Part shown: positions 1,206-21,514 of the stretch, piece after piece
Layout: every line of letters begins with the position of its first letter
Position numbering within the stretch: position 1 is the stretch's first letter
Virus record (IMG/VR): IMGVR_UViG_3300027771_001132
Span: 1 to 23,103 of that record
Length of the DNA stretch: 23,103 bases
Strand: one strand, 5' to 3'
Origin: a virus
Translations under genes and position numbers: made by a program
Notes under the pieces: generated by a model
Seen by the model: only the letters and a program-made list of their open reading frames with translations
Told to the model about the DNA's origin: nothing
Database searches by the model: none

Positions 1206-1904
1206 ATGAAGCTAATAGAACTTAAAAGTATGCATCCTGATAATGAGTTTGCACCCTCGTGGAATATTCCAATACATTTATCTACATGGGGAGATACTGA
1301 AAAAATTAATAATATTAAAAACTTTTTAATTGATAAAGAAAGCAAAGTGATACAGCAATTTCCTACCAAACAGGGCAGTGGAACCTACGGCGACGGCCGA
1401 ACAGGTTTAGGGTTAGATAGTGTAACTTCGAAATCTGGAATGTACACAATATTCGATTTTAATAAGGAATTAAGCGACTTTAATGACTTATTAGATTTTA
1501 TGAGAATTAGTTATTTAAATTTTTTATCAGAATATAAAACAGGTGTTCGTGACAGTCATATTGTTTGCTGGTTTAATGTTATTCGATCTGAACAAAGTAT
1601 TGACACCCATTTTCATGGAACAGAGCATCGCTGTTATTTAAGTGGCAATATGCATTTAGATAATTATCCAACAACAACAAATTATTACATACCGTATGAT
1701 CATACTCTTATACATAAGTTTCCAAATACAGCCGGAGGTTTAACAATGTTCCCAACGTACATGCCACACGGAGTAGATACATATACTGGAGAAGATGTTA
1801 GAGTCAGCGTTGCGTTTGATTTGCATACACAGATCCCTCAAGAACTTGTATCAATTCCATTTATAAATGATGAAATCTTTAACAGGTTGACATCTTCTTC
1901 TTAA
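1206..1904 (+). CDS. 2OG-Fe(II) oxygenase-like protein, paralog B
   Basis: A 232-residue tandem paralog of the preceding gene. I place the start at the ATG at 1206, one base after the upstream stop and after a purine-rich AGAGAGA, because the N-terminus then aligns with paralog A; an in-frame upstream start at 1170 would overlap the neighbour. Metal ligands are H135-F-H137 and H188 (MPHGV), with R199 in VRVSVAFDL. Relative to paralog A there is an insertion of about 20-25 Gly-rich residues around 54-82. Retention of both copies with all ligands suggests two substrates or a heteromer rather than decay. Confidence 0.75.
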   Translation: MKLIELKSMHPDNEFAPSWNIPIHLSTWGDTEKINNIKNFLIDKESKVIQQFPTKQGSGTYGDGRTGLGLDSVTSKSGMYTIFDFNKELSDFNDLLDFMRISYLNFLSEYKTGVRDSHIVCWFNVIRSEQSIDTHFHGTEHRCYLSGNMHLDNYPTTTNYYIPYDHTLIHKFPNTAGGLTMFPTYMPHGVDTYTGEDVRVSVAFDLHTQIPQELVSIPFINDEIFNRLTSSS

Positions 1905-1916
1905 TGTGTTATAATA
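1888..1916 (+). promoter_or_regulatory. sigma70-like promoter upstream of the exonuclease gene
   Basis: TTGACA at 1888-1893 and TATAAT at 1911-1916, both perfect consensus and spaced by 17 bases. The -35 box lies in the last codons of the upstream oxygenase and the ATG of the exonuclease is 33 bases after the -10. Two further promoters of the same form occur at 4411 and 5750. Confidence 0.75.
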
Positions 1917-1948: not shown

Positions 1949-2935
1949 ATGGCAACTTATGTACTAGTAGACACAGCTAATACTTTCTTTCGAGCTCGGC
2001 ACGTAGTACGTGGTGATATTGATACTAAAGTAGGCATGGCACTACATATCACACTTAACAGTATTAAAAAGGCTTGGAAAGACTTTAACGCAGATCATGT
2101 TGTATTCTGCTTAGAAGGTCGTAGTTGGCGCAAGGACTATTACTTGCCCTACAAACGTAACAGGCAAGTTGCACGTGATAAGATGACTGTGTCCGAAGGT
2201 GAGGACGATAAAGCGTTTTGGGAGATCTTCGACGAGTTTAAGAACTTTGTTACAGACAAGACTAACTGCACAGTTATGCAACACAAGCAACTAGAAGCAG
2301 ATGATCTTATTGCAGGTTGGGTACAAGCACACCCTGATGATCATTGTGTTATTATTAGTACAGACGGCGACTTTGCACAACTAGTAGGTCCTAATTGCAC
2401 ACAGTACAATGGTGTTGCTAACGTAACTATTACACCTAAAGGCTATTTTAACGATGACGGCTCGCCTGTTATTGAAAAGAAGACACAAGAGCGTAAGCCT
2501 GCTCCATTGCCTGACTTTATGTTGTTTGAAAAGTGTATGCGTGGCGACACTAGTGATAACGTGTTTAGTGCTTATCCTGGTGTACGCAAGAAAGGCACTA
2601 AGAATAAAGTTGGTCTTATTGAAGCATACGAAGATAAAGGTACTAAAGGTTACAACTGGAATAACATGATGCTACAACGATGGACTGATCACGAAGGTGT
2701 AGAGCATCGTGTACTAGATGATTACAACCGCAATGTTGTACTGTGTGACTTGACTGCACAACCTGCAGATATTAGAGAGATTATTGATACAACTATTGCA
2801 GAACATGCAGTACCTAAAGACATTAGTCAAGTAGGATTGCGTCTTATGAAGTTCTGTGCAAAGTGGGATATGCAACGTATTGCAGACCAGGCACAGACTT
2901 ATGCAGCACCATTACAAGCGAGGTACCCAGCATGA
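1949..2935 (+). CDS. rnh: T4 RNase H-like 5'-3' exonuclease (FEN family)
   Basis: A 328-residue flap-endonuclease/5'-3' exonuclease of the type that removes RNA primers from lagging-strand fragments in T4-like replication. The N-terminal PIN-like domain shows D8 in VLVDTAN, EADDL at 116-120 and STDGDF with D139 and D141. The helix-3-turn-helix region follows with RGDTSDN (D200, D203) and YPGVRKKG. These acidic positions are the metal-binding residues of the family. Length is close to T4 RNase H (305). It has its own sigma70-like promoter and an AAAAGG ribosome site, and the next gene overlaps its stop by four bases. Expression is probably early or middle. The T4 gene symbol is used by analogy. 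Confidence 0.85.
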   Translation: MATYVLVDTANTFFRARHVVRGDIDTKVGMALHITLNSIKKAWKDFNADHVVFCLEGRSWRKDYYLPYKRNRQVARDKMTVSEGEDDKAFWEIFDEFKNFVTDKTNCTVMQHKQLEADDLIAGWVQAHPDDHCVIISTDGDFAQLVGPNCTQYNGVANVTITPKGYFNDDGSPVIEKKTQERKPAPLPDFMLFEKCMRGDTSDNVFSAYPGVRKKGTKNKVGLIEAYEDKGTKGYNWNNMMLQRWTDHEGVEHRVLDDYNRNVVLCDLTAQPADIREIIDTTIAEHAVPKDISQVGLRLMKFCAKWDMQRIADQAQTYAAPLQARYPA

Positions 2936-3411
2936 CATTAAAAGCAAAACCAGTATTGAAAGATAAGTTTTGGATTGTCGAAAATGACAGTAACGAACGC
3001 ATAGGCACAATGGCATGGAACGATGATCGATATTTGTTTAGTAGCGGAATAGAAACATGCTTTTTTGACAGTAAAATAGAGATGAAGAAAAAGTTTGGTG
3101 TGGATATTATTTGGACAGAACACAGCCAGCAAGTGCAAGAAGATACTACTAAGCATAGTGTAGTGCATGGATATCCTACTAGCGTTACTCCGTATAACAC
3201 AATGTATGATGTAGTACGCAAGCTTCCGTTGTTTACTAAGTCAAACAAGTCAAAAAGTGCATACTGTGCAGGCTACTACATTATTGAGTTTGAAAAAGGC
3301 TGGGTTAAGAGTTTTTGTCCTAAGCTAATTACAATCGAACGTTATAACTCTAAAGGCCCATTTAAAACAGAAATAGAGATGAGATCGGAGCTTCGTCGTG
3401 CCAAACATTGA
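2932..3411 (+). CDS. conserved hypothetical protein (marine T4-like phage type)
   Basis: A 159-residue soluble protein. I chose the ATG at 2932, which overlaps the exonuclease stop (ATGA); an in-frame ATG at 2863 would lie inside the exonuclease gene. N-terminal strands (KFWIVEND..ERIGTMAWND) resemble a small beta domain, and the C-terminal half has YCAGYYIIEFEKGWVKSFCP and a basic end. I recall similar proteins near replication genes of cyanophages but cannot assign a function. Its end overlaps the GTG start of the next gene by 14 bases. Confidence 0.65.
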   Translation: MTLKAKPVLKDKFWIVENDSNERIGTMAWNDDRYLFSSGIETCFFDSKIEMKKKFGVDIIWTEHSQQVQEDTTKHSVVHGYPTSVTPYNTMYDVVRKLPLFTKSNKSKSAYCAGYYIIEFEKGWVKSFCPKLITIERYNSKGPFKTEIEMRSELRRAKH

Positions 3412-3640
3412 GCCATTGAATACTATACCTTTACAACAGTTTTTAAATGCTGTAAAGGCTGCCGAAGCTGGTAGAGCTCCTAACGTTACACTAGATATGA
3501 ATACAGCTAAGAACTTAGCATTTACATTAGGTATTGTAATGACTCGCTTACACGGCGATTTAGAGAAATTAGTTGCACAGTCTAAAAATAGTGACGACGA
3601 AGTCATTCAAGTTAATTTAGATGGCGGTTCTAAGTTTTAA
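3398..3640 (+). CDS. hypothetical small protein, GTG start
   Basis: An 80-residue, mostly helical soluble protein (PLQQFLNAVKAAEAG; TAKNLAFTLGIVMTRLHGDLEKL). It starts with GTG at 3398, supported by GGAG at 3386-3389, and overlaps the upstream gene by 14 bases, so translation is probably coupled. No motif or family is recognised. The acidic C-terminal tail ends at 3640, just before a late-type promoter and a hairpin. Confidence 0.55.
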   Translation: MPNIEPLNTIPLQQFLNAVKAAEAGRAPNVTLDMNTAKNLAFTLGIVMTRLHGDLEKLVAQSKNSDDEVIQVNLDGGSKF

Positions 3641-3662
3641 CTGCGTAGATAACTTTTAAAAA

Positions 3663-3670
3663 GATAAATA
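3663..3670 (+). promoter_or_regulatory. T4-late-type promoter (GATAAATA)
   Basis: GATAAATA, one base from the T4 late consensus TATAAATA, 31 bases before the ATG at 3702. The expected transcription start about six bases downstream falls inside the left arm of the hairpin described at 3670-3703. Confidence 0.55.
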
Positions 3671-3703
3671 TATGCGTAGTTAATTAAAAGGAATTACGCA
3701 TAT
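3670..3703 (+). promoter_or_regulatory. hairpin over the ribosome binding site and start codon
   Basis: A perfect 9-base inverted repeat: ATATGCGTA at 3670-3678 and TACGCATAT at 3695-3703. The right arm contains the first two bases of the ATG at 3702, and the 16-base loop holds the AAAAGG ribosome site. A transcript reading through from upstream can form the full stem; one started at the late promoter would lack most of the left arm. Confidence 0.55.
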
Positions 3704-3992
3704 GAGTAGGCCAAAGCCAACAGTTATATTAGAAAACATCAATAATAAAACTTATAAAAGTGAACAAGTATTAGAAGCAGACGCTATCTGGGCTGTATTC
3801 TATCAAGAAAAGCCATTTAATCTTAAAAGTGCAAATGCACTTACTAATTATCCTGGTCCTAAATACAAGAAGACTAGCTTCAGTAATCCTGGGCATGCAC
3901 ATAATCTTGCCAAGAAACTAAACGAGCTGTTTAAATGTGAAAACTTTACTGTATATAAACTTACTTCAGGCGAAGTAGTTACCGAAGTATGA
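3702..3992 (+). CDS. conserved hypothetical protein
   Basis: A 96-residue soluble protein with a central, probably conserved block (ADAIWAVFYQEKPFNL, then GPKYKKTSFSNPGHAHNLAKKLN). The pattern of aromatic and basic residues suggests nucleic-acid or protein binding, but no family is recognised. It has a good AAAAGGAA ribosome site that lies within a hairpin loop, and a late-type promoter directly upstream. The stop overlaps the next ATG by four bases. Confidence 0.65.
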   Translation: MSRPKPTVILENINNKTYKSEQVLEADAIWAVFYQEKPFNLKSANALTNYPGPKYKKTSFSNPGHAHNLAKKLNELFKCENFTVYKLTSGEVVTEV

Positions 3993-4372
3993 ATTGGAAA
4001 GAGACATATACTAAGCTCTTTCTAAAAGAACTTGGCAAAAGTACAAACGAAACAGCCATAAAAGAGTATATGCCTCTTTGGTGGAAAAACAACAGAGATA
4101 AAAACTCAGGTGGATTGCGTCTAACAGAAGCAGGATTTGATGTACTAACCTTAATAGACTTGACAACATATGACATACCATATCCAAGAGATGTGCCGTT
4201 ATCTACTCAAGTAATCATCCATCTTGATAAGTTTATTGACTGTCCGTACTACTTAACTAACCGAAGTATTGTAGTAACAAACGAAAAGAAAGCTGTCGAG
4301 CTTACACTGTTTAGTGGTGATTTGCGCAAATATGGCCTAGCAAAAGCAGTTAATAGACAAAAAAAATCCTAA
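3989..4372 (+). CDS. conserved hypothetical protein
   Basis: A 127-residue soluble protein with the motif EYMPLWWKNNRDKNSGGLRLTEAG and a following DIPYP segment, which look like a conserved core. I recall such proteins in T4-like marine phages but know no function. It starts inside the stop of the upstream gene (ATGA), and its own stop codon is the first base pairs of a terminator hairpin, so it ends the transcription unit. Confidence 0.65.
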   Translation: MNWKETYTKLFLKELGKSTNETAIKEYMPLWWKNNRDKNSGGLRLTEAGFDVLTLIDLTTYDIPYPRDVPLSTQVIIHLDKFIDCPYYLTNRSIVVTNEKKAVELTLFSGDLRKYGLAKAVNRQKKS

Positions 4373-4401
4373 CCTATTGATTTGCAACAGGTTCTTTTTT
4401 T
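4371..4401 (+). terminator. rho-independent terminator
   Basis: AACCTATTG at 4371-4379 pairs with CAACAGGTT at 4385-4393 with one A-C mismatch and a 5-base loop, followed by C and seven T. An A-tract precedes the stem, so it could also work in reverse. It separates the preceding unit from the promoter at 4411. Confidence 0.7.
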
Positions 4402-4410
4402 AGAAAATGG

Positions 4411-4438
4411 TTGACAAATTCTGTAATGGTGCTATAAT
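4411..4438 (+). promoter_or_regulatory. sigma70-like promoter upstream of the MoxR gene
   Basis: TTGACA at 4411-4416 and TATAAT at 4433-4438, spaced by 16 bases, preceded by GG and followed by ATATGTATA. It lies just after a terminator and 46 bases before the ATG at 4484. Confidence 0.8.
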
Positions 4439-8643: not shown

Positions 8644-8685
8644 ATGTATAAATACTAATAATAGATATTCTAGGAGTATATACAT
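8644..8685 (+). promoter_or_regulatory. T4-late promoter TATAAATA inside a start-codon hairpin
   Basis: A perfect late promoter TATAAATA lies at 8647-8654. It is part of the left arm of a bulged hairpin: ATGTAT 8644-8649 pairs with ATACAT 8680-8685, and ATAC 8652-8655 pairs with GTAT 8676-8679, leaving two A bulged. The right arm covers the first two bases of the ATG at 8684, and TAGGAG sits at the edge of the loop. A late transcript would lack the left arm. Confidence 0.65.
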
Positions 8686-10027: not shown

Positions 10028-10633
10028 CTAAACTTTATAATTAAAAAAGTCTACGTCTCGTGCGTGGACTTTTTTTATGGCTGCAATACTTGCACTGTTG
10101 AAGTGTTCTTTAAATTCCCAATGATCGTATCCTGTGATGTTAGGTAATGGTAATTCACATCCTAGATATTCTTGTACAGGTTTTAAATCTTCTTCTAGTG
10201 TTTCTGCTTTACATATATAATCAACCCATTCGTTGTTTACATTAATAAAGTCTACTTGATTCGTAAATCGATTAAACCATCTTGGAAATTCAAAAGGTAT
10301 ATCAGGATTGCAATAGTCAGCAACCCATTCATTCACAGGCTTTAGTTCTAGTACAGTTTGTCCATTCCAGTCTAACCAATATCCTTCGTCACGCACTTTT
10401 CGGTATAAGCTAAACACTCTTTGCCACGGGTTGCGTACTACAGTTATTGTCTTAGCATATGGATAGTGTTCACGTACCATGCCTAAGTGCGGATGATCTA
10501 CCATCCAATCTACATGAGATAGTACATTAAAATTAGGATGCAGCCAATCTGAGATAACTTTCTTCATTGCCATACCAGTTCTAGGAACATGGACATATGC
10601 TAGTTCAGGCTTTTCTATATAGAATGTACCCAT
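10028..10633 (-). CDS. sulfotransferase family protein
   Basis: A 201-residue cytosolic sulfotransferase-like protein, expected to move sulfate from PAPS to a sugar, lipid or other hydroxyl. The 5'-phosphosulfate-binding loop is HVPRTGM at residues 15-21, in place of the common PKTAGT, and the 3'-phosphate motif is VVRNPWQRVFSLY at 65-77. ETLEEDL near residue 143 is also typical of the family. No signal peptide or membrane segment is seen, unlike eukaryotic Golgi enzymes. It starts one base inside the stop of the desaturase gene. The pairing with a desaturase suggests lipid or surface modification. The Lys-to-Arg change in the first loop should be noted. Confidence 0.75.
   Translation of the reverse strand: MGTFYIEKPELAYVHVPRTGMAMKKVISDWLHPNFNVLSHVDWMVDHPHLGMVREHYPYAKTITVVRNPWQRVFSLYRKVRDEGYWLDWNGQTVLELKPVNEWVADYCNPDIPFEFPRWFNRFTNQVDFINVNNEWVDYICKAETLEEDLKPVQEYLGCELPLPNITGYDHWEFKEHFNSASIAAIKKVHARDVDFFNYKV
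10043..10076. terminator. bidirectional terminator hairpin at a convergent junction
   Basis: AAAAAAGTCTACG (10043-10055) pairs with CGTGGACTTTTTT (10063-10075) with one G-U pair and a 7-base loop, giving A- and T-tracts on both sides. It ends the fibre transcript. It lies inside the last codons of the minus-strand sulfotransferase gene, so it encodes protein on that strand. Confidence 0.7.
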
Positions 10634-11403
10634 TAGTCAATCTTAATTAATTTAATTAACAATCCCATTAAGTCCCACTCCCACCATTTTTCTCCAGTGT
10701 GATAATTTGCAGGCTTTGCATGATGATTGTTATGCCAGCCTTCGCCTAAACTAACAATGTTTGCAATCCAACTATTAGAACTATGATCCTTTGTTTCGTG
10801 ATTTCTATAACCATGATAATGACCAAGTACGTTAACTACTCCAATTAGATGTACTGTCATACTTGCAGGAACAACATATGCAAATAACCATAAAGCAGGA
10901 TCTATTAATAGCAATACAGCAGAAAATGCAAATATAATTTTAAAGTAGTGCTTAAAAATGAACTTATGTGTAGGACTACGCATTAAATCTTTAATATATC
11001 TTACTGGGATAGCTGGTACTTTCCAATCGTATCCTAACCACACTTTAATTGCTTCTTTAAAATTAAACTTACCATCAGCCCATGAACTATGAGGATCGCC
11101 TTCTCTATCTGATTGTGCATGATGTTGTCTGTGTAAAGCTACCCAACTCATTGTAGGTCCTACTGTGCTAATAACGCTAATATAACTTAGTATAGTTTCT
11201 AACCAAGGGTATGTTTTAAAACTTCTATGTGTTAATAATCTATGCAGAGTTATAACACTGCTAATGGGTCCAATAATTAACCAAGAAATTGCAGCAATTG
11301 CAAATAGGTAATACTGCTGTGTGTACACTGCATATATAACTGCTGGAACGGTTACTACATGATTAAATCCTTGTAGTAATCTTACTTTGGTGTTTAAATT
11401 CAT
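10633..11403 (-). CDS. membrane fatty acid desaturase (delta-9 type)
   Basis: A 256-residue integral membrane di-iron desaturase. The three His boxes are complete: HRLLTH (54-59), HRQHH (91-95) and HNNHH (224-228), plus the extra GHYHGYRNH region (194-202). Hydrophobic segments at about 12-30, 31-52, 70-88 and 155-192 give the usual four-helix layout. The protein should introduce a cis double bond into an acyl chain in the cytoplasmic membrane. Desaturases of this type are known in cyanophages. Its start overlaps the stop of the upstream unknown gene by four bases (ATGA), and the sulfotransferase follows. Confidence 0.88.
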   Translation of the reverse strand: MNLNTKVRLLQGFNHVVTVPAVIYAVYTQQYYLFAIAAISWLIIGPISSVITLHRLLTHRSFKTYPWLETILSYISVISTVGPTMSWVALHRQHHAQSDREGDPHSSWADGKFNFKEAIKVWLGYDWKVPAIPVRYIKDLMRSPTHKFIFKHYFKIIFAFSAVLLLIDPALWLFAYVVPASMTVHLIGVVNVLGHYHGYRNHETKDHSSNSWIANIVSLGEGWHNNHHAKPANYHTGEKWWEWDLMGLLIKLIKID

Positions 11404-12020
11404 TTACCTTCCTCTAACTCACTCCATTCGGCATGAGTAATTGTCTCTGGTGCCCAGTTGTCAAAGGCACCTTGTTTTGTCTCTTTCCATACAAAATTCT
11501 GCCAACACTTTTGTACAGGCCATGGGCAAGTTTGTATATATCCATTTGTTCCTAGTGCCCAGGCGCCTTCACTGGCAATGTCCATGTGCTTACACCATAC
11601 TTTCCAAAATCCTCTGTTAGGTCTTGCAGGACGATTTTGCATTGTGATTAAGTACACTTCATACGTATTTACTTCTTCTAGTGCATCTATTAGTTTACAT
11701 GTACAACGAAAACCGTCTGTCATATCTGTAGCAGTCATTCTAAAGTCTGGAAAGGTGTATAGTCTGTTAATTTGTTTAGCAACATTAGGAGGATATCTAC
11801 TATCGTTAAACACACCTCCCATTACCATAGGCTTTCCCGTGCTAGTTTGGTAAAGTACACCGTAGCCTGTGTGTTCTTCTACTTTTAAATTATCTTTAGT
11901 ATAGTTATTACGTAACCAATTCTCTTCTTTTAAGCATAAATTTCTTGCTTTTTCGAACTCGGGTGTAGACTTGTAATAAATCTCAACGTGTGTATTTGTT
12001 AAATCGTATCTGTATCCCAT
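11400..12020 (-). CDS. hypothetical protein, possibly GNAT-like
   Basis: A 206-residue soluble protein, first gene of the minus-strand block. The segment TGKPMVMGGVFN..VAKQINRLYTFPDFR resembles the central strand and the loop before the CoA-binding helix of GNAT acetyltransferases, but the usual RGxGxG loop is not evident, so I keep this as a weak suggestion. The C-terminal part is rich in Trp and Cys (FWKVWCKHMD; CPWPVQKCWQNFVW). No ribosome site is obvious. Co-location with desaturase and sulfotransferase genes suggests a part in the same modification. Confidence 0.6.
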   Translation of the reverse strand: MGYRYDLTNTHVEIYYKSTPEFEKARNLCLKEENWLRNNYTKDNLKVEEHTGYGVLYQTSTGKPMVMGGVFNDSRYPPNVAKQINRLYTFPDFRMTATDMTDGFRCTCKLIDALEEVNTYEVYLITMQNRPARPNRGFWKVWCKHMDIASEGAWALGTNGYIQTCPWPVQKCWQNFVWKETKQGAFDNWAPETITHAEWSELEEGK

Positions 12021-12058
12021 TATAAGTTATTTACTTAAATATGTTTAGGAGTAGTTAA
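12021..12058. promoter_or_regulatory. divergent intergenic region, possible late promoters
   Basis: Thirty-eight bases between divergent genes. On the + strand CTTAAATA (12034-12041) and on the - strand AGTAAATA (12028-12035) each match six of eight bases of the late consensus. The + gene has AGGAG at 12047-12051; the - gene has no visible ribosome site. Confidence 0.3.
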
Positions 12059-12664
12059 ATGCTGGATAATACTGTAACAAAACTAAATTTTAAATTAGAT
12101 ATTAACGAACTACGACAATATTATGACAAATTAAATACAGACTACCAGCATTTAGATTGGAGTTGGGCAAAATGTGGCGCAGATATTGTCGAGCAATGGC
12201 GAGATGCTGCTTACGAAGACCCTGCTAATTTACTAACACATGGGTGGGCTATACAAAGCAACTTAAAAGACATTACAATACCTTGTCCTCCTTGGAATAT
12301 TAGTAAACACAAAACTGTAGAGTATCGAAATACAGAACTAGCATTTGGTATAATTAGACGTTTACAGGATAAAATGCCTTTTGGATATCGGTGGGGTGTA
12401 AGTGTTCAGCCTCCAGGCGGGAAAGTTACCGAGCATACTGACGCTGATGACGAATACACTGTTTGGTTGCCTATTTACACTAACGGCCCTGCAATAACCT
12501 TTGACAAAGGCTATGAACTAGTTGCAGATGGTAGTGCTTATTTGTTGAACACTACACAGCCGCATCATACATTTAATCCTAGTAACAAAGATAGAGTTAC
12601 TATTATTTTTAGATTAAAACAAGATAAGCTCAAAGAAATATTATCTTTGGAAGGCACTATATGA
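12059..12664 (+). CDS. aspartyl/asparaginyl beta-hydroxylase-like dioxygenase
   Basis: A 201-residue cupin-fold dioxygenase-like protein. After an N-terminal helical region (1-55) comes the core: VSVQPPGGKVTEHTDADDEYTV with H126-x-D128, then GSAYLLNTTQPHHT with the distal His at 169 or 170, and R179 in DRVTIIFRL for 2-oxoglutarate. This order matches the Asp/Asn beta-hydroxylase family. It has a good AGGAG site and starts a five-gene plus-strand unit with four-base overlaps. The substrate could be a protein, lipid head group or small molecule. Confidence 0.7.
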   Translation: MLDNTVTKLNFKLDINELRQYYDKLNTDYQHLDWSWAKCGADIVEQWRDAAYEDPANLLTHGWAIQSNLKDITIPCPPWNISKHKTVEYRNTELAFGIIRRLQDKMPFGYRWGVSVQPPGGKVTEHTDADDEYTVWLPIYTNGPAITFDKGYELVADGSAYLLNTTQPHHTFNPSNKDRVTIIFRLKQDKLKEILSLEGTI

Positions 12665-13305
12665 AACATCTAGCATACTTACCTATAGACATTGATGTAC
12701 AATGGCCTGATGAAGATGTGCTGCTACAATGGTTCGAAGATCATAAGTTATTAGACGACGATTATTGGGAGTTAACATCAAATCGTCATGCATGGGCAAT
12801 GACTTCGACTTGTAAGGAACCTAAAGACTGGCGTAGATTTGATAAAGAAATGTGGGACAATCGCAGAACTGATGGAGTAAACAAAGGAGTATTCTTTCAT
12901 CCTGGCTTTGAAGAAACATTTCCTAGTCTTGCAAATTGTATTAGACAGTTACCATTTAAACAACTAACTGTAAGTGGTATGCTTTATCAACTAGGACCTA
13001 TTCCAAATCATCAAGATGCGCACGACCCCCATAATCCGTTGGAACCTAGACGTTATACAATTTACTTAACAGATCCAAAACATAATACATTTTATTTTAG
13101 TAAAAAAGAAAACGGAGAAAAGTATTATCCAACAATGCAGCGTCCTTGCTTTGCATTTAATAACAACGATGTATGGCATGGCGCAACAGAAACACATAGA
13201 CCAAAGATAATCTTAACTACTGCTGGCATTATAGATAACGAAAAACACGCTGCATTAATTAATCGCAGTTTAGAAAAATACAAAGCCGAGGCATTATATA
13301 TATGA
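12661..13305 (+). CDS. 2OG-Fe(II) oxygenase-like protein
   Basis: A 214-residue protein with a jelly-roll dioxygenase core. Key residues are H117-Q-D119 in GPIPNHQDAHD, then RRYTIYLTD, and a distal H173 in NNNDVWHGATETHRPKIILTTAGI with R180 as a possible 2-oxoglutarate anchor. The N-terminal 80 residues are acidic and Trp-rich (WPDEDVLLQWFEDH; WDNRRTDG). It overlaps both neighbours by four bases, so expression is coupled. It is only distantly similar to the other oxygenases in the window, so it is not a recent duplicate. Confidence 0.7.
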   Translation: MKHLAYLPIDIDVQWPDEDVLLQWFEDHKLLDDDYWELTSNRHAWAMTSTCKEPKDWRRFDKEMWDNRRTDGVNKGVFFHPGFEETFPSLANCIRQLPFKQLTVSGMLYQLGPIPNHQDAHDPHNPLEPRRYTIYLTDPKHNTFYFSKKENGEKYYPTMQRPCFAFNNNDVWHGATETHRPKIILTTAGIIDNEKHAALINRSLEKYKAEALYI

Positions 13306-14009
13306 AATATAATTACTACTGGAATGACGTTCCAGGTGTTGGTAAATGCCGCAACAATTTAATTTACACAAGTCTTATGAGCGAAGACACTCGGACATTT
13401 TGCCAATGGTTTTATAATGATAAAGTTTATCATAAAGGACAAAATGAAGTAGTTGATCCAAAACTAATGCAAGAGAAATTTGATCGGGAAGTTCAATACT
13501 CGTTGCTTATGGAAAAGCACTATCCGCAATATGTTCCTGTAATTAAAGATATCGATGTAGGAAACCGCAAACTTTATTTAGAAGTAGACGGAATTGACTT
13601 TTGGAATCGTGCTAACTGTAGTGTAGAAAATTATGATAGTGTGCTGCCAGACTGGCGAGATCAAATGCTTGCAATATTACAAGCATATAAAGACCTAGGA
13701 TTATACAAATACAGTTTACATCCTAGCAGCTACTTTATAATAGACGGAAAATTAAAAAGTTTTAATCATTTTTTCTGCTATCACAAAAGTGAAGGCTCAA
13801 TTAAGATTTCAGATCATGCTAGTCATATATACAGTACAAGGCAAGATATAATGCGTACACAGATAGAGACTATGGGCATAAGTTGGGACGAGCCAGAATC
13901 GTTAAATACACTACAACATTTATGTTTTGAAAGTTTTAGAAAAAACTACACTGACGATTTTATAGATGCAGCAAAACAAATATACAATAAAGGAACTAAT
14001 AATTGTTAG
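13302..14009 (+). CDS. kinase-fold-like protein lacking catalytic residues
   Basis: A 235-residue soluble protein with a layout resembling small protein or aminoglycoside kinases: an N-lobe-like part (FDREVQYSLLMEKHYPQYVPVIKDID, then RKLYLEVDGIDFW as a hinge), and KYSLHPSSYFIIDGKLKSFNHFF, which lines up with the catalytic loop (HGDLHPxNIL) and DFG. The catalytic Asp is Ser and the DFG Asp is Asn, so phosphotransfer is unlikely. I recall related proteins in cyanophages without assigned function. It overlaps the neighbours by four and seven bases. It may be a scaffold or regulator for the surrounding enzymes. Confidence 0.55.
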   Translation: MKYNYYWNDVPGVGKCRNNLIYTSLMSEDTRTFCQWFYNDKVYHKGQNEVVDPKLMQEKFDREVQYSLLMEKHYPQYVPVIKDIDVGNRKLYLEVDGIDFWNRANCSVENYDSVLPDWRDQMLAILQAYKDLGLYKYSLHPSSYFIIDGKLKSFNHFFCYHKSEGSIKISDHASHIYSTRQDIMRTQIETMGISWDEPESLNTLQHLCFESFRKNYTDDFIDAAKQIYNKGTNNC

Positions 14010-15211
14010 ATCAAATTAAAATAGTTGGCATAAATCAATTTACGCAGAACGCAATTGATACTATACGTTCTGCAATAGAAGACGTCGATGGTAATGAACT
14101 GTTGCCCACTGTTAGTCTATGCCAGCACTGTCATTATCATGTTCCTGCATTACGATATCATAAAAATAATCAGGTATTTATAGCCAAACATTGTGATACA
14201 CACGGTACAAGTCACCACATGATTGAAGGTGATTACGAATTTTATCGTAATATATACTATACCCAAGATAACCCTCAATACAACTTTAACGGCGGAGTGC
14301 TAATAGAAGTAACTGACAGGTGCAATTTAGCTTGTCCGCATTGTTATCACGAACCTGATAATGCACTTACAGATCAATCAGCTGAAAATATTATTTCACA
14401 AATTAAAAAGTGGCGCCTTGGCGATGATGCTATACATCGCGTCGTCCTTAGTGGAGCAGAGCCAACTTTACGTAAGGACTTTAATAGTCTTGTTGAACAA
14501 ATTAATGCTTTAGATCCTAGCATTACTGTGTCTGTAATGACTAACGGTATTCGGTTTTCAGATAGAAACTATGTAAAGTCGGCAATTGCAAGCGGATTAA
14601 GTAGTGTTAACATAGGATTGAATCATCCAAGTTATAATGATCACAAAGTAATTAGAAGAAAACAACTTGAAGCTATTAACAATGCACATGCAGAAGGATT
14701 ACATATAAGTTATATCAGTTATACTATGATGACTCTAGAAGAAGTTAATTTTATAATGAACGAAATATGTAGTAACGAATGGCGAAGTAAAAACTTTAGG
14801 ATTCGTTACGGAAGCGACATTGGTCGTAATCCTGGACAAGTACGTATATTTGTTAGTGATGTATACAAAGCAATCGAACAATGGTGCAAGGATAATAATA
14901 AATCATTTGAAAGAATTGTAGAAGCTGACAATAATATATATCATGTTATGGCTAGAGTAGACGGCAAAGACATAAGAATTATTCAATGGTGTGACGAAAC
15001 AGATATTGATATGGAAGAACTTCGATCTGGACCATGGTGTGATTTTGTGCCAGGTGGTATAACAAATTTCTTGCATCAGATTATTAGAAGAGACGCTTGG
15101 AAAAATAAAGGTAATGTCCTTCCTGACAGTCCAATCGAACGATATATGTTTACTAGAAATCCAACTAAAGAACCATTAGATTTATTAACAGTATATAGAA
15201 AAGAGAAGTAG
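14003..15211 (+). CDS. radical SAM enzyme with N-terminal Cys domain (tetraether-synthase-like architecture)
   Basis: A 402-residue radical SAM enzyme. It starts with TTG at 14003, supported by AAAGGA eight to nine bases upstream, and overlaps the previous gene by seven bases. The N-terminal module has C40-x2-C43, then KHCDTHGTS with C64, followed by IEGDYEFY, the same order as the metal-binding N-terminus of the MJ0619/tetraether-lipid-synthase family. The radical SAM cluster motif is C107-NLA-C111-PH-C114, followed by SGAEP as the GGEP motif. Further Cys occur in the C-terminal part (QWCDETD, GPWCDF). The reaction is unknown; related enzymes attack unactivated carbon, including lipid chains. 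Confidence 0.8.
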   Translation: MLDQIKIVGINQFTQNAIDTIRSAIEDVDGNELLPTVSLCQHCHYHVPALRYHKNNQVFIAKHCDTHGTSHHMIEGDYEFYRNIYYTQDNPQYNFNGGVLIEVTDRCNLACPHCYHEPDNALTDQSAENIISQIKKWRLGDDAIHRVVLSGAEPTLRKDFNSLVEQINALDPSITVSVMTNGIRFSDRNYVKSAIASGLSSVNIGLNHPSYNDHKVIRRKQLEAINNAHAEGLHISYISYTMMTLEEVNFIMNEICSNEWRSKNFRIRYGSDIGRNPGQVRIFVSDVYKAIEQWCKDNNKSFERIVEADNNIYHVMARVDGKDIRIIQWCDETDIDMEELRSGPWCDFVPGGITNFLHQIIRRDAWKNKGNVLPDSPIERYMFTRNPTKEPLDLLTVYRKEK

Positions 15212-15212
15212 C

Positions 15213-16022
15213 ATGATTAAAGGTATTAACGGACAACCATACTTAGATATGGAACAGCATGTAGACATGGAAACGTTTGAACAATTGCAGCCAGAGATTA
15301 TGCGAGGCTTTGCTGAAGCAAGATGGTTTGCAAAAGAAGGCACTTGGATGAAACCAGGCTTTGAATTTAGAGACATGAGTTACACGCTTAATTGGAAACC
15401 TATATATGCTGCAATGGAACAGTTTCAAGCATTGCCCGACGATGATCCAATTAAAGTAGAGGGTATGAAAATATGGCCTACAGACTTTAAAGATTATAAA
15501 CAGCGTAATGTAATTACACGCTATCTTAAAATGGCAATGGAAGCATACGATCCTTATATCTATTACTTCCTGCACGAAGAAGGTGAATGGGATGATCGTC
15601 CTGAAGAGAAAAAAGAAACTGAAGAGTCAAAATTCTTTCCTAATACAATGAAATGGTTGCAAGGATTTAAAGACAACAAGATATTTGAATCATTTGGGCG
15701 GGTAATGTTCTTTCACTGTGAAGCAGATGGATTGCCATTTGAACATAGAGACTTGGGCGCACAAAATGGCATATGGCCCAAAGACAGATACGAAGCTCAC
15801 AACAACGAATTTATACACATTCGTACAGATACTCGCAATCAATTTTATATATGGGATCCAGACAAAAAGATGAAACACGGTATTAATACTCGGGCTGCTT
15901 TTTGGAATGACCAAGATTGGCATGGTGGTAATCGTGTTATGTGTCCGACATACGGTATGCGCATTGACGGAACATTCACTGATGCATTTAGGGAAAAATT
16001 AAAATTAAACGGAACTTACTAA
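15213..16022 (+). CDS. 2OG-Fe(II) oxygenase-like protein
   Basis: A 269-residue protein with a large helical N-terminal domain (1-160) and a C-terminal jelly roll. Metal ligands are H178-R-D180 in LPFEHRDLG, H237 in NDQDWHGGN, and R250 in YGMRIDGTF as a 2-oxoglutarate-binding candidate. It is the last gene of its plus-strand unit, one base after the radical SAM stop, with a GAGAAG ribosome site. Its last 18 bases overlap the 3' end of the convergent minus-strand oxygenase gene. The substrate is unknown; its position suggests it acts after the radical SAM enzyme. Confidence 0.72.
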   Translation: MIKGINGQPYLDMEQHVDMETFEQLQPEIMRGFAEARWFAKEGTWMKPGFEFRDMSYTLNWKPIYAAMEQFQALPDDDPIKVEGMKIWPTDFKDYKQRNVITRYLKMAMEAYDPYIYYFLHEEGEWDDRPEEKKETEESKFFPNTMKWLQGFKDNKIFESFGRVMFFHCEADGLPFEHRDLGAQNGIWPKDRYEAHNNEFIHIRTDTRNQFYIWDPDKKMKHGINTRAAFWNDQDWHGGNRVMCPTYGMRIDGTFTDAFREKLKLNGTY

Positions 16023-16574
16023 GGCTGTAAATGTAAAGAGGAACTTAGTGCCTAGTCCGGCATTAAATCCTGCATGCCAGCTTTCTAGTTTTGGATAACG
16101 ATATATAGTACCCTGTGGTTCCATATAGAAACATTCGTCTTCGACCATAAATGCTTGCCCTGGTTTAGGTTTATCTATAAAACAAATACATCTCATTAAC
16201 TGTTCTTTAGTATACCCGACTAGATTAATATCCTCTGTTAGACTAGGAATATCCCAATGCCAAGGAGCGCACTTTCCAGGACGTATTTCACTAATAAAAC
16301 TTTGTAATACTGTAGTATTAGATGCCTTGCCAATTATTTTGTTAACTTCTTTGTCGTAGTGATTGCCTGGTCTGTAATGAAAGAATTCTACACTGTTGCC
16401 TTTTGAATAACCGTGTTTGTCGGCTAGTTGTTTTTGTTTTAAATGATCTTCGTAAAATGCATGCCCAGGATCTAGATCTCTATTACCAGTAAACGGCGTC
16501 ACAGTATGTTGTAGACATTCGTTAATTAACGAGTCACATAAATTCGGCGGCAGCTTTCCTAAGTAATGTTTCAT
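16005..16574 (-). CDS. AspH-like 2OG-Fe(II) dioxygenase
   Basis: A 189-residue protein. The core has SEIRPGKCAPWHWDIPS with H106-W-D108, LMRCICFIDKPKPGQ, and then ESWHAGFNAGLGTKFLFTF with H167 and a basic K177. This matches small Asp/Asn-hydroxylase-like dioxygenases. The N-terminal 70 residues are His- and Asp-rich. Its start overlaps the stop of the upstream oxygenase gene by four bases (ATGA), so both are made together. The 3' end overlaps the facing gene by 18 bases, with no terminator visible between them. Confidence 0.72.
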   Translation of the reverse strand: MKHYLGKLPPNLCDSLINECLQHTVTPFTGNRDLDPGHAFYEDHLKQKQLADKHGYSKGNSVEFFHYRPGNHYDKEVNKIIGKASNTTVLQSFISEIRPGKCAPWHWDIPSLTEDINLVGYTKEQLMRCICFIDKPKPGQAFMVEDECFYMEPQGTIYRYPKLESWHAGFNAGLGTKFLFTFTALVSSV

Positions 16575-17248
16575 ATTGCTGTTCCCACTGCTAAATTAAA
16601 ATACGAAGTTTCGATTAATTTAAATTCTTTTAAATGACTACTTTCAATGTTAAACGAAACGTAGTTAGTGTCATACACAAAGCTATTTACTATTCCGTTT
16701 TTATTTGCTGCATTAAGCCAAGGACTGTAAAACTCATCAAACACATATCTATAATCAGATTTAAGTTCCTTTAGTGTCATTGTTATATGCACAGGATCTT
16801 TTAATACATTTCTATTAAGTAATTTTCTAACTACCAACTGTATTCTATCAATACTTCCGGTATTTACTGCACTATGCAGTTCGCCGGCATTCATATCAGA
16901 CCAATAGTTTGATTCTACTTGAGGATATATTAAATTAGCGTCAGTATATAATACAAAGCTACGTTCACCTTGGATATTAAAATGATATCTGTCATCCATA
17001 TCTGCATGGGAAAGATATGCTTGCCCAGGGTCTAGTTTTATTAAACGTGCTTCGCCTATGTTGCTAGGTAATGTAGATACTAAGTTGTCCCATACTGTGT
17101 CTTTGTATTCTTCTTTAATAGTCCAATCATCATAAAAGAAGTCCCCAGTTGGCTCGTTTAACGGCAACTTAAAGTTAACATCTATATCAGCAGACTTTAA
17201 CTGTTGTTTAATATCATCATTGACAAAGTATGAAGTCTGTGTTATCAT
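16571..17248 (-). CDS. AspH/cupin-like 2OG-Fe(II) dioxygenase
   Basis: A 225-residue protein with the core LIKLDPGQAYLSHADMDDRYHFN (H81-A-D83), GERSFVLYTD, and GELHSAVNTGSIDRIQLVVR with H125 and R135, which is a complete dioxygenase metal site with a 2-oxoglutarate Arg. A further C-terminal domain (150-225) contains SDYRYVFDEFYSPWLN and no known motif. It is the first gene of a two-gene minus-strand unit, divergent from the PP-loop gene. No clear ribosome site is seen; CATAAATA lies only five bases upstream on its strand, so a leaderless late transcript is possible. Confidence 0.7.
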   Translation of the reverse strand: MITQTSYFVNDDIKQQLKSADIDVNFKLPLNEPTGDFFYDDWTIKEEYKDTVWDNLVSTLPSNIGEARLIKLDPGQAYLSHADMDDRYHFNIQGERSFVLYTDANLIYPQVESNYWSDMNAGELHSAVNTGSIDRIQLVVRKLLNRNVLKDPVHITMTLKELKSDYRYVFDEFYSPWLNAANKNGIVNSFVYDTNYVSFNIESSHLKEFKLIETSYFNLAVGTAI

Positions 17249-17287
17249 ATATTTATTTATGTGTGTACTTAATAGATAAGTATTATT
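17249..17287. promoter_or_regulatory. divergent intergenic region with CATAAATA on the minus strand
   Basis: Thirty-nine AT-rich bases between divergent genes. CATAAATA (minus strand, 17254-17261) matches seven of eight late-consensus bases but lies only five bases from the ATG at 17248. No clear plus-strand promoter or ribosome site is seen for the gene at 17288. Confidence 0.3.
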
Positions 17288-17968
17288 ATGAACATATATC
17301 TAGATCAAAAGTGGAACCGAATAGGCATAAGTTTAAGCGGTGGTGCAGATAGTGCTCTACTTGCTTACTTAATATGTAAAAACGTAAGTACAACTACAGA
17401 TATACATATTACTAACCAAATACGCATGTGGAAGACACGACCATGGCAAGGATACGTTGCTGATGGTGTAATTAATTGGCTAAAACAAGAGTTTAATAAT
17501 AAGTTTTATATACACAAAAACTTAATACCGCCTGAATTAGAAGAGCCTACTGATTATTTTATTAAAGACGAGTATGGTAAAATGAAATCAGGTAATAGGA
17601 TTATATTACGTTCACACAACGAATACATTGCACATCAATACAACTTAGATGCATTATACGGCGGTGTAAATATGAATCCTGATATAGATATACCTGGACA
17701 ACTAGATGAGCGTAATGAAGGTACGTTAGTTCCTCATTTTGTACACAACGGGGTTGACATTTGTCATCCTTTCGTGTATACTAAGAAAGATTGGATTATA
17801 CAACAGTTCTACAAAAACAATATTATAGATTTGTTAAATCTTACTCGCAGTTGCGAAGGAGAATTTAAAGGTTTGGATTATACAACATATACACCTGGAC
17901 AAGATGTTCCGATATGTGGAGAATGTTTTTGGTGCAAGGAACGTCAATGGGGAATAGATAATGCATAA
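17288..17968 (+). CDS. QueC-like PP-loop ATPase
   Basis: A 226-residue N-type ATP pyrophosphatase. The PP-loop is SGGADS at residues 17-22. The C-terminus has a four-Cys zinc site, TRSC189 and then C210-GE-C213-FW-C216-KER, the order seen in 7-cyano-7-deazaguanine synthase QueC, though the first spacing is about 20 residues instead of 8. QueC converts carboxy-deazaguanine to preQ0 with ATP and ammonia. No queD, queE or folE gene is recognised in the window, so a different adenylation substrate is equally possible. The gene has no clear ribosome site; its end overlaps the next radical SAM gene by eight bases. Confidence 0.7.
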   Translation: MNIYLDQKWNRIGISLSGGADSALLAYLICKNVSTTTDIHITNQIRMWKTRPWQGYVADGVINWLKQEFNNKFYIHKNLIPPELEEPTDYFIKDEYGKMKSGNRIILRSHNEYIAHQYNLDALYGGVNMNPDIDIPGQLDERNEGTLVPHFVHNGVDICHPFVYTKKDWIIQQFYKNNIIDLLNLTRSCEGEFKGLDYTTYTPGQDVPICGECFWCKERQWGIDNA

Positions 17969-19226
17969 AAGTTGCACATTCTGTATGCACCCATTTACAG
18001 GATTAGCTACACGGGAAGACGGTGCTATTAAGGTATGTTGTCGTAGTGCGCCTATTGGTTATATTCAAAACGAAACACTAGAAGAAGTGTGGAATGGCGA
18101 AACTATGCGCAAAGTACGTAAGCAAGTGCTTAATAACGAACGTCCAGAAGTATGCAAGCCTTGCTTTGACTTAGAAGATCAGGGGGTGCAGAGCTTACGA
18201 CAGCGTCATATAGCAGGGGTAATACCTGAAGCTAGAGTCAACTTGTACCCAGATGCACTTGCTGCACTAGAAGAAGATTATACAATGCCGTTTGAACTTC
18301 CTACTATGGAAATTAAACTAAACAACTTATGCAACTTAAAATGTCGTATGTGTAATCCATTAGACAGTACTAGCTGGAAGGATTGGGATCAAGTAACAGA
18401 GTTTTATAAAAAAGAAGATAACATATTAATTCCTATTGTAGAATCACTTGTATCTAAGCCAGGGCAGTATATAGGTCCATTCGACAATAGTGATAACTGG
18501 TGGACATCGTTTGAAAAACTATTACCATTCTTTAGGCGTGTAGAGTTTGCAGGTGGCGAACCACTAATGGATCCATATCATTATAAGATATTAGACAAGC
18601 TTGCAGAGTATGGTGACAATATAGAGCTAAAGTACGCTACAAACGGCACTACACTGGGTATTAAAGGTGGAAGAACGATCCACGACTATTGGCCTAAGTT
18701 TAAAAGCATAGCTGTAAACGTAAGCATAGACGGCTTACATGACGTTTACGAGTACATTAGAGGCAATGGTAAATTTAGCGTAATAGAAGAAAACATTAAA
18801 GTTTTTAAGAGCTTTCCTAATGTAAGCAGAGTAGTTGGTGCATTTACTGTACAATCAAACAACATAATGCAGATTGATAAAGTTATTGATTACTTTATTA
18901 ACGAACTAGGAATTGTGTTTTATTCTCACAGAGTATCTTATCCTAAATCATTAAGTGCGCAAGTATTGCCGCCAGGACTAAAAGCAAAAGTAATAGCACG
19001 TTTAGAACAAATGAAAACAGAAGTATTAGAATACCCGATGGTTAAACAGCATAAACTATTAGAAACTGTAACACTACAACAGATACAAGATAACATTAAC
19101 TTCTTACAAGCAAAGTGTATGTATGAAACACATTGGCAAGACTGTATAGAGTTTAACAAACGCTTAGATAAAACTCGTGGGCAAGACTTCCTTGCAGCTA
19201 ATCCAGAATTTATTCCGTATGTTTAA
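17961..19226 (+). CDS. twitch-domain radical SAM enzyme A
   Basis: A 421-residue radical SAM enzyme. Residues 1-70 form an N-terminal twitch/SPASM-like Cys module: C5-TF-C8, CC at 26-27 within DGAIKVCC, and C65-KP-C68. The radical SAM cluster motif is C124-NLK-C128-RM-C131, followed by AGGEP, and TNGT and SIDG motifs typical of the barrel. The likely extra [4Fe-4S] cluster in the N-terminal module puts it among enzymes that modify peptides, sugars or other small molecules. It shares this layout with the minus-strand gene at 20108-21514. It overlaps the PP-loop gene and the next radical SAM gene by eight bases each. Confidence 0.85.
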   Translation: MHKSCTFCMHPFTGLATREDGAIKVCCRSAPIGYIQNETLEEVWNGETMRKVRKQVLNNERPEVCKPCFDLEDQGVQSLRQRHIAGVIPEARVNLYPDALAALEEDYTMPFELPTMEIKLNNLCNLKCRMCNPLDSTSWKDWDQVTEFYKKEDNILIPIVESLVSKPGQYIGPFDNSDNWWTSFEKLLPFFRRVEFAGGEPLMDPYHYKILDKLAEYGDNIELKYATNGTTLGIKGGRTIHDYWPKFKSIAVNVSIDGLHDVYEYIRGNGKFSVIEENIKVFKSFPNVSRVVGAFTVQSNNIMQIDKVIDYFINELGIVFYSHRVSYPKSLSAQVLPPGLKAKVIARLEQMKTEVLEYPMVKQHKLLETVTLQQIQDNINFLQAKCMYETHWQDCIEFNKRLDKTRGQDFLAANPEFIPYV

Positions 19227-20139
19227 AGTAGAAAGTCGATGGGGCCATCATACCAGTGTTCATGTAGAATGGAATATAGGCAAACGCTGTAACTTAGATT
19301 GCGGATACTGTCCTGCAGAAATACACGATAATTTTAGTCCGCACACTAATATAGATACAATGACTGCTGCAATATATAAATTAGCGGAATTAGATAAACC
19401 AATACGTCTTAGTTTAACTGGTGGCGAGCCAACTGTACATCCTAAAATAAATGAAATATTAAAATGTGCCAGAGATAGTTTAGATTGGCTAAGTGTTACA
19501 ACTAATGGGCTACGCTCATCAGATTGGTACATTAAGCAACCAGTAAACCAATGGGTGTTTAGTTTACATTTTGATAACAAACACAGTCGGCGAGCTGCTG
19601 AAAACGTTGTTAAGTACTCGCAACTACTAGATATGGAAGGCATGGCTACACTATACCAAGTCAATCTAATGGCACATCACGAACACATGGACGAAGTTAG
19701 AGCAGCAGCTACATTGTTAGAAGGACATAACATTCCATATGTCTGCAGACGTATCAGATGGACCGAAGCAGATAATCGAGAATGGTTTGACGATTTACGC
19801 TATCAGACAGCAGACTTAGATTGGATATTAAGTAAAGTTGCAACTGTAAAGCCAAACTGTATCATTGACGATAATGATATGCTGCATGCCAACGATGTTA
19901 TTAAGCATAAATTAAATCAATTTAAGGGATGGTCCTGTAATGCTGGATTAGAAAGTTTAATGATTAATTGGGACGGTGAAGTGCATCGTGCTACTTGCAG
20001 AGTAGGAGGAAGTTTAGGTAATATTTATAACGGAACATTTGAATCTCCTGTTGCTCCTATTACATGTACACGTACATGGTGTACATGTGCTGCTGATATT
20101 CCGTTGACTAAAGTAAATGTGCTAGTTCAGGAAATATAG
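19219..20139 (+). CDS. SPASM-type radical SAM enzyme A
   Basis: A 306-residue radical SAM enzyme. I place the start at ATG 19219, eight bases inside the previous gene's end; an upstream in-frame ATG at 19177 would add 14 residues with no similarity to the family. The motif C24-NLD-C28-GY-C31 is near the N-terminus, followed by LTGGEP and TNGL. The C-terminal SPASM-like domain has C240, INWDGEV, C260, LGNIY, then C283, C288 and C290, enough for an auxiliary Fe-S cluster. The 3' end overlaps the convergent twitch-domain gene by 32 bases. Confidence 0.83.
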   Translation: MFKVESRWGHHTSVHVEWNIGKRCNLDCGYCPAEIHDNFSPHTNIDTMTAAIYKLAELDKPIRLSLTGGEPTVHPKINEILKCARDSLDWLSVTTNGLRSSDWYIKQPVNQWVFSLHFDNKHSRRAAENVVKYSQLLDMEGMATLYQVNLMAHHEHMDEVRAAATLLEGHNIPYVCRRIRWTEADNREWFDDLRYQTADLDWILSKVATVKPNCIIDDNDMLHANDVIKHKLNQFKGWSCNAGLESLMINWDGEVHRATCRVGGSLGNIYNGTFESPVAPITCTRTWCTCAADIPLTKVNVLVQEI

Positions 20140-21514
20140 CTGCTGCGTTTAATCCACGGATAGCATCAAGCTTGTTTACATATTCTTTAAATCCAGGCAG
20201 CATATGACTATTATCTCGACTATCCATATGCTTTAATAATCCTGTCCACTGTCGCCAGCCCTTAGGATTGTGTATCCAAAATTCATCGTCTTGTGTATAA
20301 TTGTCCCATAACCATGTTTTAAGTTCTGCAAAGCGTTCGCGTACATCTTGTTTGTCTGCTTCAGGCAACATTGTAATGTTAAGGAATGTAGGTATATGAA
20401 CTAAGTGTGCATTAACAAGTCCGCCGCCCATCATCATATTGTGTACTCGTCCTACATTCATCTTCTTAAAGTTGCTGTTTACTTTCCACTTTATAAAGTC
20501 TGGTATATGTTTGATGTTGAATATTTGTACTGCTGTTGCCATACTAACATGTATGTTATCAGGAGTATTGTCTAACATATGCAAAGTGCGCTCTACTTCT
20601 GAAAACTTTCCAGGGAAGCGTATATAATCGTCACGTTCAAAACTTGCATCAACACTAACTGCAAACTTAACTTTACGGAACTTGCTCCACAACTCAATTA
20701 GCTCGTTATCTACAAGAAGTCCATTTGAATTATAGCGTAATAACACTTTGTCTTGATAACCTTGTCTAACAATTTCTTGAATGAACATTTTATGTTCTTT
20801 AATCATTAAAGGTTCGCCGCCGGCAAAGTAGACTTGTTTTAGATTAGGTATTTGTGCATACAACTCTTTCCAGAATGATTCTTTTTCGTGCCACTTGTTA
20901 TTAAATTCTTTCTTATCCCATGTCATCTGTTTCTTTACAGATTCATCTTCTAACTGCGGAACGAGTTTCTGCCAGTCTGCAACCCACTTGCTTGAATCAT
21001 GCGGACTGCACATTACACATTTAATATTACAAGTATGTCCTAAACGCAAATCTAGGTATTGCAAGCGTTCAGGCACAGTGCCATCTTCTTCTGTTTGATG
21101 TATTAATTCTTCTATATCAACACCTTCATCGTGCATCCATGTTGCAGTTTCCCAAATACGCTTACTAACAATGCCTTGCGATTCTTCATCAAAACATCCT
21201 GTACAACTTGCTGGTATTTTTCCTTCGAGCATAGTAGTACGAACATTTTTCATAAAGTCGCTGTTCCATGCTTCCATAGGAGTAACTTTTCCAAAGTTAG
21301 CATGACTGCCGTCTTTGTTTTTGATCAATCCAACAGTGTGATTTTCTCCTGCGCCGCTTGCATTTGCAGTACAGCATAATCTCATATCGCCATTAGGACG
21401 GGTTGCTAAGTGTATCCACGGTAGTACACAAAATGTGCAACTTGATTTAGTTGCTAAGTCACGTTGAAACTTACCTAGTCTAGTATCTTCTTTATCGTAG
21501 TGCGAATTTGTCAT
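20108..21514 (-). CDS. twitch-domain radical SAM enzyme B
   Basis: A 468-residue radical SAM enzyme with the same architecture as the one at 17961-19226: N-terminal Cys module C26-TF-C29, CC at 47-48 in GDMRLCC, and C104-TG-C107; radical SAM motif C162-NIK-C166-VM-C169; then FAGGEP, YNSNGL and SVDAS. A longer C-terminal region (about 370-468) is helical and Trp-rich (KTWLWDNYTQDDEFW). Its start overlaps the upstream radical SAM stop by four bases. The opposite orientation and weak overall identity to the plus-strand copy suggest ancient, separate paralogs and not a recent inversion. Confidence 0.85.
   Translation of the reverse strand: MTNSHYDKEDTRLGKFQRDLATKSSCTFCVLPWIHLATRPNGDMRLCCTANASGAGENHTVGLIKNKDGSHANFGKVTPMEAWNSDFMKNVRTTMLEGKIPASCTGCFDEESQGIVSKRIWETATWMHDEGVDIEELIHQTEEDGTVPERLQYLDLRLGHTCNIKCVMCSPHDSSKWVADWQKLVPQLEDESVKKQMTWDKKEFNNKWHEKESFWKELYAQIPNLKQVYFAGGEPLMIKEHKMFIQEIVRQGYQDKVLLRYNSNGLLVDNELIELWSKFRKVKFAVSVDASFERDDYIRFPGKFSEVERTLHMLDNTPDNIHVSMATAVQIFNIKHIPDFIKWKVNSNFKKMNVGRVHNMMMGGGLVNAHLVHIPTFLNITMLPEADKQDVRERFAELKTWLWDNYTQDDEFWIHNPKGWRQWTGLLKHMDSRDNSHMLPGFKEYVNKLDAIRGLNAAAIFPELAHLL

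Follow-up and report, generated by a model that had tools for sequence, protein, structure and literature searches.

A late promoter within a start-codon hairpin: a predicted early/late translation switch in marine and jumbo phages

Introduction

Translation switches of the gene e type have been documented mainly for a few genes of phage T4 and for homing endonucleases. The described cases are genes e, soc, 49 and I-TevI of T4, and mobE of Aeh1 (PMC3014915; PMC2988022). At gene e the long early messages are folded, and the late ones lack the 5' strand of the hairpin (PMC3014915). Genes soc and 49 have the Shine–Dalgarno (SD) sequence and/or the AUG sequestered in a helix, as in gene e (PMC3014915), and at I-TevI, I-TevII, I-TevIII, segB and Aeh1 mobE the placement of the promoter, whether late or middle, stops the late message from forming a hairpin that sequesters the ribosome-binding site (RBS) (PMC2988022).

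The leader described here precedes a gene for a 96-amino acid (aa) protein. It resembles gene e in that a late promoter box lies in the 5' strand of a predicted start-sequestering hairpin (PMC3014915), and in that the energy signature, by our calculation, is the same. It differs in that the gene is unrelated and belongs to a marine/jumbo-phage lineage, in that the arms around one constant late box appear to have been exchanged repeatedly, and in that the stretch of DNA studied has a competing hairpin upstream. The likeness to soc and gene 49 is one of description, and again the gene is unrelated. With the homing endonuclease genes it shares the placement of the promoter; unlike them, it is an ordinary syntenic gene without a Pfam or PHROG match, and searches of Pfam, PHROG and the PDB returned no relative that would make it a homing endonuclease. 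What is new, then, is the gene, the phage lineage and the way in which structures seem to have turned over while the late promoter stayed in place; our literature search turned up no paper describing a switch of this type in a jumbo phage, and none on the transcriptome of PA5oct, one of the phages concerned.

A first-pass annotation of this DNA had proposed an early/late switch like that of gene e. The late box, the covariation of the arms, the unrelated arms of other clades and the gene e energy signature all bear the proposal out, and we consider it highly probable, from modeling and sequence comparison, that the leader acts in cis as an early/late translation switch dependent on the choice of promoter.

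The window and its genes

The window, by which we mean the whole stretch analyzed (23,103 nucleotides), is a 23-kb virus record from IMG/VR. The features that surround the leader are these:

1887..1915 (+), sigma70-type early promoter of the upstream operon, TTGACA-N17-TATAAT, 12/12 consensus
1949..2935 (+), RNase H / 5'–3' exonuclease-like gene, first of the early operon (phrog_107, PF02739)
3398..3640 (+), 80-aa ORF directly 5' of the leader, its stop codon overlapping the competing arm described below (from the sequence)
3702..3992 (+), the putatively regulated gene, 96-aa protein; conserved family, confident model, no PDB relative
3989..4372 (+), 127-aa partner gene, its start overlapping the stop of the 96-aa gene; a related ORF follows in 229/256 loci
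4371..4400 (+), imperfect terminator-like hairpin and T-run, 3' of both genes (from the sequence)
4411..4438 (+), sigma70-type promoter of the next operon (MoxR-like ATPase), 12/12 consensus

The genes 5' of the 96-aa gene, RNase H-like and then two small ORFs, run in its direction, and the 96-aa and 127-aa ORFs overlap by ATGA. The terminator scan scores the hairpin at 4371–4400 on the minus strand; on the plus strand it has one mismatch. Sigma70-type promoters also occur at 42, 4411 and 5750. The one at 1887 lies 1.8 kb 5' of the switch, a similar promoter recurs ~1.76 kb 5' in relatives, and no strong terminator was found between it and the 96-aa gene; by sequence, the gene may belong to an early transcription unit. 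Of the 66 leader representatives whose flanks are long, 23 have a sigma70-type promoter (≥11/12) within 2.5 kb upstream (opposite strand, 1) and 31 have one within 1.3 kb downstream (opposite strand, 1), and a strict scan of the 2.5 kb upstream found terminators in only two. With promoters upstream and few terminators intervening, read-through of early messages into the 96-aa gene is to be expected.

Most of the 57 diverse homologues aligned share 52–81% identity with the window's 96-aa protein, which is modeled with confidence (pLDDT 90.8). It has no relatives that we could find in Pfam, PHROG or the PDB, and its two good BFVD matches are uncharacterized phage proteins. At the DNA level the window matched none of the named phages searched; a protein search gave 15 named jumbo-phage records with homologues, among them Sinorhizobium phage Phosso, PA5oct-like phages of Pseudomonas, Agrobacterium phage Atu_ph07 and Salicola phage SCTP-2, in which the nuclease-to-ATPase neighborhood is mostly retained. 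With the SCTP-2 protein as query, no relatives came up.

Farther along, positions 10028–23101 form a dense block of what, by eye, may be modification enzymes: several radical-SAM-like (CxxxCxxC) and 2OG-oxygenase-like ORFs, a fatty-acid-desaturase-like ORF (10633–11403, minus strand) and an ATP-pyrophosphatase-like ORF (17288–17968), all judged from the translations.

The late promoter

3663..3670 (+), T4-type late promoter box GATAAATA, predicted start 3676; box in 255/256 homologues

The annotation had placed a late promoter across the left edge of the hairpin, and GATAAATA does overlap the left arm there. It had also put the start of the late transcript near 3676, which is the position that T4 spacing gives, the box of a T4 late promoter lying by convention at –13 to –6 (PMC2988020); we infer a late start at 3676 from that spacing. 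One-mismatch matches to TATAAATA occur across the window at chance level, and the significance of the box has to be sought in relatives.

Our homologue set comprises 256 loci of the 96-aa gene with enough upstream sequence, from marine and jumbo phages in IMG/VR and among the named phages. Taking the best match within ~65 nt, a permissive search, 255 of these have NNTAAATA upstream, 233 have NATAAATA and 205 have GATAAATA. For comparison, NATAAATA occurs within 75 nt of 73 of ~605 ORFs in five long relatives, where GATAAATA occurs 27 times against ~6 expected. The extended motif GATAAATATATGNGTA (≤1 mismatch) is found exactly once in each of 12 relatives. A late sigma factor of the gp55 family (phrog_234, phrog_12791) is encoded in 11 of 13 records tested, and is missing only from two fragments, the 23-kb window and one of 82 kb. 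At the level of sequence, then, these features of gene e are present: a late box directly 5' of the ribosome site, a predicted start-sequestering hairpin whose 5' strand is at or upstream of the predicted late start, and a gp55-family factor in the lineage.

In four leaders (L159, L260, L265 and L268) so little distance separates late box and start codon that a late message is predicted to be nearly leaderless (0–5 nt). Elsewhere in the window, at 8647–8684, a perfect TATAAATA box precedes a 446-aa tail-fibre-like gene (8684); the box's own sequence pairs weakly with the SD region, and the cost of opening is 8.0 in read-through messages and 3.2 in late ones.

The hairpin and its covariation

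3669..3681 (+), left arm of the predicted sequestering hairpin, with 3669–3675 missing from the predicted late transcript (folding, covariation)
3686..3692 (+), Shine–Dalgarno sequence AAAAGGA, in the loop (sequence, folding)
3692..3704 (+), right arm, covering the start codon at 3702–3704 (folding, covariation)

The perfect 9-base inverted repeat of the annotation is there: ATATGCGTA at 3670–3678 is exactly complementary to TACGCATAT at 3695–3703. It is the core of a longer RNA helix, of 12–13 bp, that by way of a G–U pair joins 3669/3670–3681 to 3692–3703/3704. The 10-nt loop, AAUUAAAAGG, contains the SD, as had been claimed, and the AUG is in the stem, where the annotation had put its first two bases; with U3669–G3704 closing the helix, the whole AUG can pair. 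Folded alone, 3661–3725 reaches –17.2 kcal/mol (z = –5.6), and none of 200 shuffles is as stable. Perfect repeats (arms ≥9, loop ≤20) are nevertheless close to chance in number, five in the window versus 3.0 ± 1.4 in shuffles. Since the repeat alone, like the TATAAATA matches, is near chance, the case must rest on comparative evidence; what exceeds chance is the position of the hairpin and its conservation among homologues.

The late transcript had been expected to lose most of the left arm and to be open. A transcript from 3676 does lose 6 of the 12 arm bases, but a 6-bp remnant, GUAGUU/AAUUAC, stays, and the late message is predicted to be much more weakly structured, not fully open.

Most of the 86 unique marine-type leaders fold the same helix. 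Covariation was examined in 28 leaders selected blind to the left arm. Among these, 90.5% of positions pair versus 85.2 ± 1.1 in shuffles, with slid registers reaching at most 71%, and the covariation score is 0.228 versus 0.134 ± 0.017, a value that none of 500 shuffles attains; two pairs have changed on both sides, which is not above shuffles. The best covarying pair is G3674–C3699, found as G–C in 13 of the 28, as A–U in nine, as G–U in five and unpaired in one. Counted from the predicted late start, G3674 is at position –2, hence only messages that begin farther 5' could be affected by its pairing. Covariation in related phages had been put forward as a check on the inverted repeat; in the window's clade the helix does covary, position –2 included.

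This bears on whether the promoter might be all that is conserved. The conserved TATATGCGTA could be an extended DNA element of the late promoter and start region, with the complementarity of the right arm incidental, and GATAAATATATG is indeed also conserved in leaders without the marine hairpin (L033, L039, L047). The right arm covaries with the left, however, and the L033 group sequesters its ribosome site too, by an arm further upstream. These points, with the unrelated arms that do the same job elsewhere and the lack of the effect at other late-box genes, both taken up below, make promoter conservation by itself a very unlikely explanation.

Access to the ribosome site across leaders

We calculated how much energy it takes to open the ribosome site (–18 to +3), once for a message begun upstream and once for a message begun where the late start is predicted. 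The positive control, gene e of T4, gives 15–17 kcal/mol for read-through versus 4.1 for late. Across 98 marine-type leaders the median is 10.4 for read-through and 3.4 for late, with a difference of at least 4 in 82.

Native read-through leaders were compared with leaders whose upstream halves had been exchanged between homologues. Dinucleotide-shuffled upstream sequence was dropped as the sole control in favor of this exchange: shuffling underestimates the marine clade, because the 5 nt between promoter and start are barely altered. Over 82 leader clusters, the native read-through message costs on average 3.7–4.1 kcal/mol more to open than the swapped (Wilcoxon 2e-12, 1e-13), and the effect is equally strong in the 55 clusters that are without the marine hairpin (mean 4.3, Wilcoxon 2e-9). 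The clusters, drawn at ~75% leader identity, are related by descent, so these p-values are optimistic, and the variety of the arms is the stronger argument. In leaders without that hairpin, the ribosome site is often bound by arms of unrelated sequence, located 5' of the predicted late start: ACCTCTTTT...AAAAGAGGT in L147, CACCAATCTTT...AAAGATTGGTG in L157, CTCCGTAT...ATACGGAG in L155 and TATGTTTAATCT...AGATTAAACATA in L173, in all of which the 5' arm is upstream of the late box. Five relatives supplied 43 other late-box genes, and neither these (mean +0.22, p 0.5) nor the 80 genes used as controls (+0.14, p 0.7) showed the effect. On the strength of the 43, we rejected the idea that late promoters in these phages have such a switch in general.

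The inverted repeat might instead be a DNA operator, bound by an autorepressor or some other protein. It overlaps the promoter, and has a near-copy of its left arm upstream, at 3641–3652; and there is a precedent, since I-TevI binds an operator that overlaps its own late promoter (PMC2988022). Yet marine leaders differ widely in the distance between the arms, and in other clades the arm sequences are unrelated, neither of which a fixed protein site would permit, and G–U pairs are tolerated; an operator in place of an RNA switch strikes us as extremely improbable. Hairpins close to 5' ends often protect phage RNAs or direct their processing, and this hairpin, too, could be an element of processing, stability or termination and not a block to translation. 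We give that reading equally little credence, as no T-run follows 3669–3704 in the sequence, the right arm and the start codon go together, and what the native-versus-swapped comparison scored was access to the ribosome site.

A competing hairpin in the window

3637..3647 (+), competing upstream arm, pairs with 3673–3683 and frees the ribosome site (11-bp hairpin, –11.2 kcal/mol)

The window's own leader is more complicated. The competing hairpin (–11.2 kcal/mol) and the sequestering hairpin (–12.3 kcal/mol) exclude one another. With the former allowed, opening the read-through message costs 4.3–6.9 kcal/mol, close to the 3.4–4.3 of the late message; without it, the cost is 12–14 kcal/mol. Masking 3624–3652 raises the read-through cost from 6.4 to 13.7 kcal/mol. 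The claim that read-through transcripts are folded thus stands for the sequestering fold taken without its competitor, and is weakened when the competitor is allowed. A ribosome terminating at the stop codon of the 80-aa ORF (3638–3640) would probably sit over the competing arm, and the models indicate that the competing hairpin weakens the predicted block in the window unless this upstream ORF is translated.

The leader of this one phage might even be bistable, gated by translation of the 80-aa ORF: sequestered when the ORF is translated, exposed when it is not. The near-equal energies of the two hairpins, and the rise in cost when the stop-codon region is masked, speak for this. However, of the 98 marine-type leaders only about a dozen, from close relatives, show marked competition, and the upstream arm does not follow changes in the left arm; we regard a bistable leader as unlikely, if somewhat less so than the alternatives above. 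On the preferred reading, of a switch set by promoter choice, we take the competition predicted in the window's leader to be incidental, although it could add a layer of control.

In many marine relatives a AACTRCGTAGATAACT-like element, a near-repeat of the left arm, lies ~9 bp 5' of the late box (3641–3652 in the window); it may be a site for a protein or the remains of a duplication. We considered this near-repeat as part of the conserved switch and rejected it, competition being strong in close relatives only.

How the switch might work

Transcription from the sigma70-type promoter at 1887 would give early messages that cross the RNase H operon and include the full hairpin at 3669–3704. 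With the start codon in the stem and the SD in the loop, the 96-aa gene and its overlapping partner would be poorly translated. Late in infection, RNA polymerase carrying the phage's gp55-type sigma factor would start inside the left arm, near 3676, and the message, now without half of the helix, would be translated. The read-through, the repression and the reason for late-only expression are our inferences here. Across the gene family, judging by modeled folds and compared sequences, it is the logic of the switch that appears to be conserved and not any one hairpin sequence.

Leaders without sequestration

Sequestration is low in about a quarter of the leader clusters. Some have a terminator instead: an intrinsic terminator occurs within 160 nt 5' of the late box in 6 of 21 low-sequestration clusters versus 3 of 61 others (Fisher p 0.007, with a 4 kcal/mol cut-off set after seeing the data); a rank test of terminator against sequestration, independent of any cut-off, gives p 0.0015, and the background of terminators is 7/246. 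Just 5' of the late box in L095 (PA5oct), L122, L125, L141, L102 and L104, a terminator replaces or adds to sequestration. Most low-sequestration clusters are also without a recognized terminator, and several leaders have neither.

There is perhaps an even chance that what selection maintains is the absence of early translation and not any particular sequence, RBS-sequestering arms or an upstream terminator having been re-invented many times around the fixed late promoter of one orthologous gene, throughout a broad marine/jumbo lineage. If so, the 96-aa product or its partner would be harmful, or wasteful, before the late phase. The gene e-type logic predicted here marks one uncharacterized gene in hundreds of sequences from marine and jumbo phages, and flags a two-gene unit as probably kept off until late. 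With RNA structure apparently replaced again and again around a fixed promoter, it offers a natural experiment in regulatory turnover, and the compensatory and cross-clade predictions that follow can be tested with simple reporters.

A possible second case

In two relatives, TTTGACA arms flank a AATAAATA box just before the SD of a large structural-type (tail) gene (G001:113856, minus strand; G002:145442, plus strand). These tail-gene leaders are possibly a second case of the same logic.
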